A stretch of DNA of 7,473 nucleotides, taken from Syntrophobacter sp. SbD2 (lineage in GTDB: Bacteria; Desulfobacterota; Syntrophobacteria; Syntrophobacterales; Syntrophobacteraceae). The notes under the pieces are model-generated. The model did not search any database and was not told the DNA's origin. It saw only the letters and a program-made list of their open reading frames with translations. Each line of letters begins with the position of its first letter. The first letter of the stretch is position 1. The DNA is taken from contig OMSV01000146.1 in assembly GCA_900290385.1 (NCBI GenBank), positions 3,281-10,753 on the forward strand, read 5' to 3'. This document shows, in pieces, positions 2,397 to 7,299 of this stretch. A program made the position numbers and the translations under genes.

Positions 2397-2705
2397 CTAG
2401 TCGAACTTCACCGGCTCCTCCGGGCGATCCATCTCCCGTGGGAACTCGGTGAACGGAAACGGGCGGGTGTTGTCGTTCAGGGTTGTGTATCGTATGAGCC
2501 TGTAGACATAGACTGCCGCCTTGTTCGAGAGGGAGCGCAGCGGTTCGCTGGAGCTCCTGGTTATGAGGAGCACCACGTACTGGATCAAGACCATCATTTG
2601 GATTAAGAAGTGCATTACGCTCAGTATCACAAGAAAAAGAAGCGTATAAATAAGCCTGATCCCAATTTTTCCTCGAGGAATACCGCCTTGTGACATTTCG
2701 TCCAT
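2397..2705 (-). CDS. DUF4389-like small membrane protein
   Basis: The 102-residue product has a short polar N-terminus, one long hydrophobic segment at about residues 14-48 (one or two membrane helices), then a cytoplasm-like segment with LSNKAAVYVYRLIRYTTLNDNTRPFPFTEFP. The pattern of a hydrophobic helix with a QYVVLLIT-type end, an amphipathic stretch with Y and R residues, and a closing RPFPF motif (81-85) is what I know of DUF4389 proteins, whose biochemical role is unknown. The ATG at 2705 is preceded by AAGGAGATAA on the minus strand, an excellent ribosome binding site. It lies 49 bases downstream of the DoxX-like gene in the same direction, so the two are probably one transcript and may act together in the inner membrane. 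The assignment to DUF4389 rests on pattern memory and would need a profile search. Confidence 0.75.
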   Translation of the reverse strand: MDEMSQGGIPRGKIGIRLIYTLLFLVILSVMHFLIQMMVLIQYVVLLITRSSSEPLRSLSNKAAVYVYRLIRYTTLNDNTRPFPFTEFPREMDRPEEPVKFD

Positions 2706-3667: not shown

Positions 3668-3702
3668 ATGCTGAGGAAAGGAATTCATCTTAACCATAGC
3701 AC

Positions 3703-3729
3703 CTCTGCGCCCTCTGCGCCCTCTGCGCC
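3703..3729. repeat. 9-bp tandem repeat, three perfect copies (CTCTGCGCC)
   Basis: CTCTGCGCC is repeated exactly at 3703-3711, 3712-3720 and 3721-3729 and runs directly into the 16-bp array that follows, which also starts with TCTGCG. It is non-coding and likely grew by replication slippage. Confidence 0.92.
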
Positions 3730-3777
3730 TCTGCGGTGGAATGGTTCTGCGGTGGAATGGTTCTGCGGTGGAATGGT
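3730..3777. repeat. 16-bp tandem repeat, three perfect copies plus a partial
   Basis: TCTGCGGTGGAATGGT is repeated exactly at 3730-3745, 3746-3761 and 3762-3777, followed by the first six bases of a fourth copy (3778-3783). It ends about 10 bases from the displaced 3' end of the DprA-like gene. The unit contains the TCTGCGGTGGAA phrase common at one end of dispersed bacterial intergenic repeats. Confidence 0.93.
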
Positions 3778-3793
3778 TCTGCGCTGAAAAGAT

Positions 3794-4051
3794 TCAACCG
3801 TTCAGGACTACGATCGGCAGTCCGGGCTCTACATGCCTGCAAAGCTTTGCCTTTTCATCCTTTGTCTGCACGAATACAAATCCCTTATCAGGTTTTATTT
3901 CACCGAGCGTCAGGCTGCCCCGCAAACGCCACTCGCGCTCGTGTCTCCACGATGCGGACGGGTCGGAACGGCTCACCTGAAAACGATACCTTTCGGATTC
4001 GACGAGCCGGGAATAGACCAGTTCACTGCCATATATGGCGGGCTTTGCTCC
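3794..4051 (-). pseudogene. Frame-displaced C-terminal segment of the DprA-like fusion gene
   Basis: In this frame the minus strand encodes GAKPAIYGSELVYSRLVES again, then 66 further residues starting ERYRFQVSRSD and ending PIVVLNG before a stop. The segment includes SWRHEREWRLRGSLTL and KGFVFVQ. The first 19 residues are identical to residues 464-482 of the upstream reading frame because they are encoded by the second copy of an exact 58-bp duplication. Reading from the main frame directly into this segment would give one continuous protein of about 548 residues. The frame is open back to an ATG at 4141, but the extra N-terminal residues there are an out-of-frame reading of the duplicated DNA and have no ribosome binding site. 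It is therefore best seen as the lost tail of the neighbouring gene rather than an independent gene. Confidence 0.75.
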
Positions 4052-4110
4052 CGGATTCGACGAGCCGGGAATAGACCAGTTCACTGCCATATATGGCGGG
4101 CTTTGCTCCC
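3994..4110. repeat. Exact 58-bp tandem duplication inside a coding region
   Basis: Bases 3994-4051 and 4052-4109 are identical, and the match continues one more base to 4110. The unit begins CGGATTCGACGAGCCGG and contains CCATATATGGCGGG. Because 58 is not a multiple of three, the second copy shifts the minus-strand frame, and the main reading frame ends at a TGA (4023-4025) inside the copy at 3994-4051. Exact identity implies a recent event, or an assembly artefact. Confidence 0.95.
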
Positions 4111-5498
4111 AGAGAACGCAAAATATCCCGCCGGACCGCAACCCCGTAGGGTTCTACCGTCCACCTGACTAGCGCCCGGTTCCACTTTCGCATTACAACA
4201 AGCTCCTGCGGGGGATGAGAACTCCAGCAAATCACCGCCGCCCGGCCGCGAACCATCCGGGACGACGCCCGAACCAGCCCGTCCTGTATAATCCTGATGA
4301 GGGTTTCCAGGGCCGAGTGTCCTGAGAGGGGATGTCCGTCAAGCAGATCGAGCAGATATCGATGGTAACTCTGGCCCGGCCATGGGCCTCCACATGCCCT
4401 GGTATAGTGGAAGAGATAATCACTCCAGGCGATATCGTCGTGCTGGGAAGAGCGGTAAAATCCAAGTGGTCTCCCTTTAGAAAAGCGCGGTGAATTTTCC
4501 TTTGCGGGACACTGAGTTTCACCTGGGTCTGCGGCGGGCGAATACTGGGTTCGAGGGAGCTTGAATCCGTGTGCGTGCCCTGAGAATTTTGTTAGAAGGG
4601 TGCGATTTCCCGTGTTCGAAGCGTTGGTCTTTTCGGGTTCGAAAACGAACTGTCGCCGGGGTGATTTTGCCTGGATTTCCTCCAGGGCCGCCAGGAGGTT
4701 TCCGCGAGACCGGATTTCCAGCACGAGATGAAAATCCGCCAGTGCGCCAAGAATCCGGTCGCGGCAGATGGGGGCTTGCCTTTTGGAACATGTGAGGGTC
4801 TCGGCCATACACGTAAATACCGGAACGCTGCGAGCGTTTCCCCCGTATATTTTCAACAGTTCCCGGTCCACCTTCAGAAGAGGCAAAGGCGCAACCAGGA
4901 GTTGAACCAATCCGGAACGCAGGGCCTGCGCGCCCGCCAGATCGTAGGTGAGCGTTCCCATGCTGCCCGCAAGTCCTATTTCCCCGGGGTCTAAATTGCG
5001 GAAAAAGAAGCACAGCGCCTCGAGCCAGTTTGAATCAGGGGAAACGAGCCTCGGTTTTCGGGAATTGAATACTGCAAGTAGAGGCAGACCGGAGTTCAGA
5101 CCGCCTTTGCCAAAAAGGACGGCGGGGCAGCACGCCGCTCCTGATTGAGGGGGCGCCTCCAGGTTGATCGGACCGAGAAACGGGGCGCCCCACCTGAACA
5201 CTTTTATTCCCTTTTCAACGAACTCATCCGCCTGTTTCCGGCAATTATCCCACAGGCTTGCATTAAGGGCCGGAAAGGCTTCCTGCACCCACGAACGCAA
5301 ATCACTTTCGGTTCGAACTCCAGCGCCGGCCAACCGGTTAAACCGGCAGTGCTGTTCCACGCCCTGGATTTTTAACCGCCCCATTAAACCGCTCGCGGCG
5401 AGAACGCAATAAGAGGTTTGGACATCCAGTTGAATAATGGGCTTAAGACGGATTGAGGAATTGGGGGATTTAGGGATTGAGGGATTTGGGGATTTCAC
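4023..5498 (-). CDS. Divergent DprA/SMF-like protein fused to a C-terminal ART/AbiGi-like domain, truncated by frameshift
   Basis: The 491-residue product has two parts. Residues about 25-310 resemble DprA/SMF: a helical start (TSYCVLAASGLMGRLKIQG), PAVLFGKG at 125-132, AVFNSRKPR at 142-150 (compare the DprA GSRxP loop), a segment equivalent to the VSGLARGID region but degenerate (GLAGSMGTLTYDLAGAQAL, 175-193), CRDRILGALADFHLVLEI at 245-262 (compare RNRIIAGLS...VVEA), and NTGNRTLL at 295-302. After a low-complexity linker (315-355) comes a second domain: YLFHYTRACGGPWPGQS (361-377), ALETLIRIIQDGLVRASSRM (396-415), VRWTVEPYGVAV (444-455), and GAKPAIYG (464-471). Its HYT, L-x2-I-x2-GL and YG-x-A features recall ADP-ribosyltransferase-like toxins or AbiGi-type proteins; this is inference. 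The frame ends early because of the 58-bp duplication, leaving nine unrelated residues (GSKARHIWQ). The start is a GTG with only a weak purine tract, and the first 17 residues come from repetitive DNA, so the start is uncertain. True DprA loads RecA in transformation; this degenerate version may instead sense nucleotides. Confidence 0.68.
   Translation of the reverse strand: MKSPNPSIPKSPNSSIRLKPIIQLDVQTSYCVLAASGLMGRLKIQGVEQHCRFNRLAGAGVRTESDLRSWVQEAFPALNASLWDNCRKQADEFVEKGIKVFRWGAPFLGPINLEAPPQSGAACCPAVLFGKGGLNSGLPLLAVFNSRKPRLVSPDSNWLEALCFFFRNLDPGEIGLAGSMGTLTYDLAGAQALRSGLVQLLVAPLPLLKVDRELLKIYGGNARSVPVFTCMAETLTCSKRQAPICRDRILGALADFHLVLEIRSRGNLLAALEEIQAKSPRRQFVFEPEKTNASNTGNRTLLTKFSGHAHGFKLPRTQYSPAADPGETQCPAKENSPRFSKGRPLGFYRSSQHDDIAWSDYLFHYTRACGGPWPGQSYHRYLLDLLDGHPLSGHSALETLIRIIQDGLVRASSRMVRGRAAVICWSSHPPQELVVMRKWNRALVRWTVEPYGVAVRRDILRSLGAKPAIYGSELVYSRLVESGSKARHIWQ
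5451..5495. repeat. Low-complexity GGGATTT/GGGATTGA repeat forming the N-terminus of the DprA-like reading frame
   Basis: Degenerate units of 7-9 bases (GATTGAGG, AATTGGGG, GATTTAGG, GATTGAGG, GATTTGGG) fill this stretch, followed by TTCACTC twice (5494-5507). On the minus strand it encodes the serine/proline-rich residues KSPNPSIPKSPNSSI. Such DNA is usually intergenic, so the coding start of the neighbouring gene may have been extended into, or wrongly placed within, a repeat. Confidence 0.75.
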
Positions 5499-5547: not shown

Positions 5548-5661
5548 CTGCTCTCTGCTCCTTGCTCCTTGCTCCCCGCTCCCCGCTCCCCGCTCCCTGC
5601 TCCCTGTGCTCCCCGCTTCCTGCTCACTGCTTCCTGCTCACTGCTCACCGTTCACTATTCT
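5548..5661. repeat. Degenerate heptanucleotide array, about 16 units (CYGCTCC)
   Basis: Seven-base units follow each other in register: CTGCTCT, CTGCTCC, TTGCTCC twice, CCGCTCC three times, CTGCTCC, then one 9-base unit CTGTGCTCC, then CCGCTTC, CTGCTCA, CTGCTTC, CTGCTCA twice, CCGTTCA and CTATTCT. The array occupies the whole first part of the region downstream of thiC, and its last unit overlaps the first base of the thiC stop codon. On the minus strand it reads as GGAGCRG units. It is too short-period and spacerless to be a CRISPR. It may be transcribed as the 3' end of the thiC mRNA. Confidence 0.9.
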
Positions 5662-6932
5662 CAAACCGCCCGGCTGATCTTCACCGCGCAAAGCTTTCCG
5701 CACATGCTGCAGCCCTCGCGGTCCTCGGTTACCTGGAGGCGCGCTTTTACGAGTTCCGGGTCGATGGCTTCACGGGCCATTGCGTCCCAATCCAGGTTGC
5801 TCCGGGCGATCGACATGCGCCTGTCGGCCTCGACGGCCCCCGGAAGTCCTTTGGCGATATCCGCTATATGGCCGGCGATCCGGGCGGCCATAACCCCCTG
5901 GTACACGTCATCGGCGTTGGGAAGTCCAAGGTGTTCGGCAGGGGTCACATAGCAGAGATAATCCGCTCCGGCAGCCCCGGCAATCGCGCCTCCTATGGCG
6001 GCGGTAATGTGGTCGTAGCCTGCCGCAATGTCGGTCGGAAGCGGCCCGAGAATATAAAAGGGAGCGCCGTCGCACAACCTCTTCTGGAGCATGACGTTGG
6101 CGGTAATCTGGTTAAGGGGCACGTGCCCCGGCCCTTCGATCATCACCTGCACGTTTCTTTTGCGCGCCCTTCTTGCCAGCTCTCCAAGGGTCATCAGCTC
6201 TTCCAACTGAGGCCCGTCCGTAGCGTCCAGGATCGCGCCGGGCCGAAATCCGTCCCCGAGGCTAAGAGTAACGTCATACTTGTATGCAATGCTCAGCAGG
6301 TCGTCATAGTACTCATAGAGCGGGTTTTGTTTCCCGTTTTTGCGCATCCAGGCCATGTGAATGGAGCCACCCCGGCTCACGCAGGGCATGATGCGCTCGT
6401 AGGTTTCGAGTTTTTTTACGGAATCCAGTGTCACCCCGCAATGCACCGTGATGTAGTCAAGGCCCTGGGCGCACTGCCGCTCGATGCTTCTCAGAAGTTC
6501 GTCCGCATCCATTGTATCGAGCGCCTGATGCCGTTGAACCATCTCTGTAGCCACCCCATAAATCGGCACCGCTCCAACGATGACCGGCGAGTTCTTCAGG
6601 AAAAAACTCCTGAAGGCCTCCAGGTCCTTGCCGGTGGAAAGGTCCATTATGGAATCGGTCCCGGCCCGCAGGGCCGCCTCGAGCTTTTCCTTCTCAAAAT
6701 CCATGGAACAGCGCTCGCCGCTGGTCCCAAGGTTGGCGTTGACTTTAGTCTTGAGGTTTTTACCGATTGCCCTTAGCTCGGGAAACGAATGATTTATATT
6801 CCTGGGCAGAACAGCCAGTCCTTCGGCAATCAGTTCCCGCAGTTGCTCTGCGGAGACCGGCTCGTTTTCGGCGGCTTTTTTCATTTCTTCTGTGATTATG
6901 CCTGCTCTGGCAGCTTCGAGCTGCGTCGCCAT
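5661..6932 (-). CDS. thiC: Phosphomethylpyrimidine (HMP-P) synthase ThiC, short form; BzaF/HbiS paralogue not excluded
   Basis: ThiC is a radical-SAM enzyme that rearranges aminoimidazole ribotide into HMP phosphate for thiamin synthesis in the cytoplasm. The 423-residue product shows the family core throughout: GIITEEMKKAA at about 11-21, RNINH, TKVNANLGTS, MDLSTG, NSPVIVGAVPIY, DYITVHCGVTL, SRGGSIHMAW, NPLYEYYDDLL, DVTLSLGDGFRPG, EGPGHVPLNQI, LGPLPTDIAAGYDHITAAIGGA and CYVTPAEHLGLP. The [4Fe-4S] cluster cysteines close the protein at C408, C411 and C415 (CSMCGKLC), a CX2CX3C spacing one residue shorter than the E. coli-type CX2CX4C. It lacks the long N-terminal domain of E. coli and plant ThiC. 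The annotated frame permits a GTG at 6935, but the ATG at 6932 is better spaced from the ribosome binding site. The paralogue that makes 5-hydroxybenzimidazole for cobamides (BzaF/HbiS) is very similar and no cobamide genes are visible here, so thiC is preferred. No TPP riboswitch is seen upstream. Confidence 0.9.
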   Translation of the reverse strand: MATQLEAARAGIITEEMKKAAENEPVSAEQLRELIAEGLAVLPRNINHSFPELRAIGKNLKTKVNANLGTSGERCSMDFEKEKLEAALRAGTDSIMDLSTGKDLEAFRSFFLKNSPVIVGAVPIYGVATEMVQRHQALDTMDADELLRSIERQCAQGLDYITVHCGVTLDSVKKLETYERIMPCVSRGGSIHMAWMRKNGKQNPLYEYYDDLLSIAYKYDVTLSLGDGFRPGAILDATDGPQLEELMTLGELARRARKRNVQVMIEGPGHVPLNQITANVMLQKRLCDGAPFYILGPLPTDIAAGYDHITAAIGGAIAGAAGADYLCYVTPAEHLGLPNADDVYQGVMAARIAGHIADIAKGLPGAVEADRRMSIARSNLDWDAMAREAIDPELVKARLQVTEDREGCSMCGKLCAVKISRAV

Positions 6933-6938
6933 CACGTT

Positions 6939-6944: not shown

Positions 6945-6977
6945 GTAGTAAGGTGCGATATCCTGAAAATGAACTAG

Positions 6978-7136
6978 TGCAGCGTCAACTAAGTTCCTAT
7001 AGGTAAGGTCCTATAATCCGTCATTCCGGCGAAGGCCGGAATCCAGAGTCTCTTCAGTTGGTTAAAAGCACTGGACCCCGGCTTTTCGCCGGGGTGACGA
7101 TTCCTTGCAACATGTCATAACTTAGTTGACAATGTA
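6978..7136. mobile_element. MITE-like element, copy A (non-autonomous, 159 bp)
   Basis: The left end TGCAGCGTCAACTAAGTT and the right end (7119-7136) are inverted repeats of 18 bp with three mismatches. CTAG lies on both sides (6974-6977 and 7137-7140), as a 4-bp target duplication would. Inside are three hairpins: TATAGGT/near-ACCTATA around 6998-7015 (one mismatch), ATTCCGGC-GAAG-GCCGGAAT at 7023-7042, and ACCCCGGC-TTTTC-GCCGGGGT at 7075-7095. The last two, with the phrases CGTCATTCC and GGGGTGACG, are typical of widespread bacterial dRS3-like intergenic repeats. There is no open frame, so any mobility would need a transposase in trans. The transposase family is not recognised. Confidence 0.75.
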
Positions 7137-7140
7137 CTAG

Positions 7141-7299
7141 TGCAGCGTCAACTAAGTTCCTATAGGTAAGGACCTATAATCCGTCATTCCGGCGAAGGCC
7201 GGAATCCAGAGTCTTTTCAGTTGGTTAAAAGCACTGGACCCCGGCTTTTCGCCGGGGTGACGATTCCTTGCAACATGTCATAACTTAGTTGACGCTGCA
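7141..7299. mobile_element. MITE-like element, copy B (non-autonomous, 159 bp)
   Basis: This is a second copy 163 bases downstream of copy A, differing at about five positions, three of them in the right terminal repeat. Its 18-bp terminal inverted repeats (7141-7158 and 7282-7299) are perfect. The flanks are CTAG (7137-7140) and TTAG (7300-7303). All three internal stems are perfect here: TATAGGT/ACCTATA at 7161-7178, ATTCCGGC/GCCGGAAT at 7186-7205, and ACCCCGGC/GCCGGGGT at 7238-7258. The intact ends suggest that copy B is closer to the mobile form. Confidence 0.78.

Follow-up and report, generated by a model that had tools for sequence, protein, structure and literature searches.

An Exact 58-bp Tandem Duplication in the Assembled Sequence of a Widespread DprA/ShosA-Like and ADP-Ribosyltransferase-Fold Fusion Gene from Syntrophobacter sp. 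SbD2

Introduction

DprA is a single-stranded DNA-binding protein. Among its homologues are the antitoxins of shosTA and related pairs, as described in passages of one report (PMC9122126). By analogy, ThsA, the SIR2-SLOG effector of Thoeris, combines a domain of the DprA/LOG superfamily with an effector that consumes nicotinamide adenine dinucleotide, according to parts of another source (PMC11204291). Here we analyze a stretch of 7,473 nucleotides from Syntrophobacter sp. SbD2 (contig OMSV01000146.1, positions 3,281 to 10,753; hereafter, the window), in which a minus-strand gene fusing a DprA/ShosA-like part to an ADP-ribosyltransferase-fold part is interrupted by an exact tandem duplication of 58 base pairs (bp). 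The effector fold of ThsA differs from that of this fusion. The duplication itself is ordinary; what it points to is a widespread fusion family. From the sequence comparisons presented below, we estimate at about 0.5 the probability that the window carries a real null allele, in which a recent and private duplication would have broken the fusion gene.

Comparison With Described Systems

The N-terminal part of the fusion matches the ShosA fold (top match PDB 8zva), and the Rossmann-like fold of DprA (PDB 3uqz) was also recovered; the C-terminal part matches an ADP-ribosyltransferase fold, the nearest being DarT (PDB 7omw, 7yk3). Thus, a preliminary description of the window, made from its letters, was right in calling the product DprA-like and a fusion. 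Sequence libraries were far less informative: the DprA family PF02481 (DNA_processg_A) gave no Pfam match above cut-off for the window open reading frame (ORF), one weak match in the seven relatives scanned (14.2 vs. the 29.6-bit cut-off), and 22.5 bits, also under the cut-off, for the fusion gene of genome G021. Neither of the two window pieces had an above-cut-off match in Pfam, NCBIfam, PADLOC or PHROGs, nor did the fusion relatives in Pfam or NCBIfam. A PDB sequence search with the 491-residue piece found no match; PDB profile searches returned no row for alignment A2 and three unrelated rows for alignment A3, with expectation values (E) of 0.39–0.54. Among 43 transferase-domain sequences, AbiGi/DUF2971 (PF10899, PF11185) and the PADLOC model PDC-S31 produced weak matches in 3, 2, and 2 (best E of 0.0024, 0.052, and 0.0043, respectively), and DUF2971 scored 15.3 vs. 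a cut-off of 22 bits on the first member. In a search of the open-licence literature, no paper treating the parts of the fusion together was found. The curated libraries searched contain no above-cut-off match to this widespread family.

The family considered here is that of Syntrophobacteraceae bacterium bog_1154 (genome G001, which holds relative locus L001), with 26 genomes; the class comprises 55. In most of these family genomes the fusion protein differs from canonical DprA in not being the only DprA, as a strong separate one (E below 1e-72) is encoded in 23 of the 26; elsewhere it is in pieces (G002) or represented by weak matches only (G010, G012). The fusion shares the ShosA-like fold with ShosTA, but the phosphoribosyltransferase toxin ShosT has no counterpart among the eight window proteins scanned. 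Similarly, the fold of DarT is shared by the transferase part, but among the listed families PF14487 matches none of the 43 domain sequences, the hhalign profile comparison (with two DarTs only) was negative, and no DarG-type macrodomain antitoxin was recognized in the window. PF14487 itself occurs in 2 of the 55 class genomes; in two family genomes (L080, L081) a DarT gene is followed by a macrodomain gene, the DarT match of L080 having a stop codon.

No antitoxin gene was recognized beside the fusion in the window. Macrodomain proteins are encoded elsewhere in 24 of the 26 family genomes, and the genome without the fusion is one of these 24; NADAR is found in 1 of the 26. As dedicated antitoxins, both candidates were rejected, NADAR for its rarity and the macrodomain for its lack of strict co-occurrence.

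The Broken Gene and Its Intact Homologues

The two 58-bp copies reported in the preliminary description are exactly identical (Table 1), and the matching base that follows them explains the end point of 4110 given there. Because 58 is not divisible by three, the gene, which lies on the minus strand, is out of frame past the first copy read; the peptide GAKPAIYGSELVYSRLVES is present in both the 491-residue and the 115-residue minus-strand ORFs, in two frames, as had been observed. The DprA/ShosA-like part is left whole, and the last 66 residues are out of frame together with two glutamates that are invariant in the 43 transferase-domain sequences. The segment EREWR, which contains them, is the probable catalytic site of the transferase-fold part.

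The homologue search, clustered at 90% identity, yielded 133 proteins, of which 120 were listed; downstream of the break, 111 of these 120 carry the motif WxxExE[WHYF]R and 9 lack it. Most relatives examined thus carry the gene whole and run on into the EREWR tail, and no protein examined ends like the 491-residue form, in support of the proposed truncation. The database protein P0001 (510 residues, from sources tagged jgi and lgn) is intact through the duplicated stretch and identical to the window over the portions compared, namely 417 residues before and 66 after it; as it begins 38 residues into the window ORF, it is consistent with the joined product of about 548 residues that had been calculated. 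Because of the 90% clustering, a truncated twin could be concealed among its three members. Against L001, the ratio of nonsynonymous to synonymous substitution rates was 0.15 for thiC; within the fusion gene it was 0.28 (head), 0.16 (transferase part preceding the break) and 0.37 (stranded tail). The tail residues, identical to those of intact P0001, show no sign of decay since the break, and a real event would therefore be a recent one.

The Tandem Duplication and Other Repeats

Across 46 relative loci (563,767 bases), a single exact tandem duplication with a period of 30–299 was found, a 30-bp simple repeat; given this rarity, the exact 58-bp duplication is more than chance. Border homology between the copies amounts to one base, and no sequence that could template switching in both directions was seen at the borders. 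Two candidate structures were discarded: a DNA hairpin as the cause, because shuffled versions of the 58-bp unit fold just as well (z = −0.10), and a 12-bp palindrome inside the unit, which is perfect at the same place in just 3 of the 36 relatives read and hence not conserved. With one shared border base and an ordinary fold of the unit, no sequence driving repeated formation is visible.

Other tandem repeats of the window are a 16-bp unit present 3.4 times exactly, a 163-bp unit present twice at 98% identity, and simple repeats. Three short-tandem-repeat clusters (3702–3783, 5450–5494, 5548–5646) flank or overlap the fusion gene, one of them overlapping its 5′ end, where the N-terminal residues differ among relatives. 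The 163-bp element (6964–7293) is bounded by inverted repeats about 23 bp long and resembles the relic of a small mobile element.

Distribution and Neighborhood

The fusion gene was found in 25 of the 26 family genomes (in a few as partial copies at contig ends) and in 39 of the 55 class genomes; internal stops affect 2 of the 43 class-level matches (G050 and G055). On 6 of the 46 relative loci (L001, L003, L007–L010) thiC lies nearby, and on 4 (L007–L010) a DUF4389 gene; many loci with long flanks have neither, so the neighborhood of the window is not general. No relative of the fusion was found in the viral contigs and phages searched, and the plasmid search gave one weak match, a Hymenobacter plasmid protein (L047, 6001–6417) weakly similar (27.7%) to the transferase-fold part. 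From its conservation, the fusion apparently resides at a stable chromosomal locus. Genome G001 also contains, apart from the main fusion gene, a second fragment (L074, 1504–1674) that corresponds to the tail only (residues 453–509).

Table 1. Coordinates of the repeat copies, the parts of the broken gene and the neighboring genes in the window
Feature	Position	Strand	Remarks
58-bp repeat, copy 1	3994..4051	+	Exact match to copy 2
58-bp repeat, copy 2	4052..4109		Identical to copy 1; base 4110 matches too
Truncated ORF, 491 residues, GTG start	4023..5498	-	DprA/ShosA-like and ADP-ribosyltransferase-fold fusion; supported by homologues
ORF, 115 residues	3794-4141	-	Shares GAKPAIYGSELVYSRLVES with the 491-residue ORF, in a different frame
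DprA/ShosA-like part	4527..5384	-	P0001 residues 1-286
ADP-ribosyltransferase-fold part, from its start to the frame break	4053..4439	-	P0001 residues 316-444; fold match, coordinates by arithmetic
66-residue transferase-fold tail, other frame	3797..3994	-	Identical to P0001 residues 445-510
EREWR motif of the out-of-frame tail	3926..3940	-	Both glutamates invariant in alignment A3; coordinates by arithmetic
thiC	5661..6935	-	Pfam; neighbor of the fusion gene
DUF4389 gene	2397..2705	-	Pfam; close to the fusion gene in L007-L010 as well

Discussion

We propose that the intact gene encodes a two-part protein, whose DprA/ShosA-like domain probably binds single-stranded DNA and probably restrains or triggers an effector of ADP-ribosyltransferase fold. 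A recent, private and exact 58-bp duplication would then have shifted the frame and removed the conserved WxxExEWR segment, so that the sensor part would presumably be joined to an effector that no longer works. Such a duplication would not be templated by repeats, and reversion by loss of one copy would be possible.

Against this null allele stands, as a serious though doubtful alternative, an assembly artefact, by which two contigs with a 58-base overlap were joined unmerged and the organism has a single copy. Assemblers use odd values of k, with overlaps of k−1, and 58 would be k−1 for a hypothetical k of 59; the perfect identity of the copies with almost no border homology, the existence of the intact twin P0001 from sources tagged jgi and lgn, and the near absence of comparable duplications from the relative loci point the same way. 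However, the 16-bp, 163-bp and simple repeats of the window suggest that tandem repeats do arise here and favor a real event.

A switch had been suggested in the preliminary description; we consider it unlikely that cells go back and forth between a one-copy and a two-copy state and so activate and silence the transferase effector. In favor of such a switch, slippage or recombination can remove a 58-bp direct repeat, P0001 is an intact form with no other difference over the stretches compared, and several proteins of relatives lose the frame in the same stretch. Nevertheless, with one-base borders that offer no templating repeat, switching off would not recur; neither the 46 loci nor the proteins examined, which are relatives and not known to be of the same population, contained another two-copy form; and the breaks of the relatives end differently and may be sequence errors. 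One copy could in principle be lost, as from any direct repeat, but the evolved switch is unsupported: the simpler options that had also been listed, a single inactivating mutation or an error of assembly, are more likely.

The breaks of the relatives deserve a closer description. Eleven C-truncated proteins were considered (the nine motif-less ones among the 120 listed and two from a second search), six of which (P0031, P0044, P0080, P0098, P0187, and P0206, the last just 37% identical) appear by eye to be out of frame or to end near residues 427–453, beside the duplicated stretch (residues 426–444). All six are tagged ena only, and fragments were length-selected by the search. A ThiC search (best 120 of 7998), not comparable as a control, lists P0285 (438 residues, 97% covered), on a contig equal in length (39,835) to that of fragment P0178; this protein is itself slightly abnormal, which hints at sequence errors. 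Recurrent frame breaks were accordingly dropped as a claim, and it is quite improbable that the stretch around the duplication is a recurrent off-site, where close relatives repeatedly lose the frame just upstream of WxxExEWR and populations keep sensor-only cells beside live-effector cells. A separate group of 13 short C-terminal proteins (P0178, P0179, P0191, P0205, P0207, P0208, P0210, P0213, P0216, P0217, P0218, P0220, and P0222) starts at Met 377 or 398, five of them on contigs longer than 15 kilobases, a pattern that would fit a break in the frame upstream.

Finally, we give very little credence to the 491-residue protein being a selected functional form, e.g., a sensor-only inhibitor, since, although its DprA-like part remains complete and DprA homologues are antitoxins in the pairs described in passages of PMC9122126, none of the listed homologues has this ending and the stranded tail is without visible decay.

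Returning to the intact fusion, if its DprA part detects single-stranded DNA and then sets the transferase free, the protein would be a single-chain counterpart of the sensor-effector arrangements of ShosTA and Thoeris, kept by 25 of the 26 genomes of one bacterial family, most of which also encode a canonical DprA.
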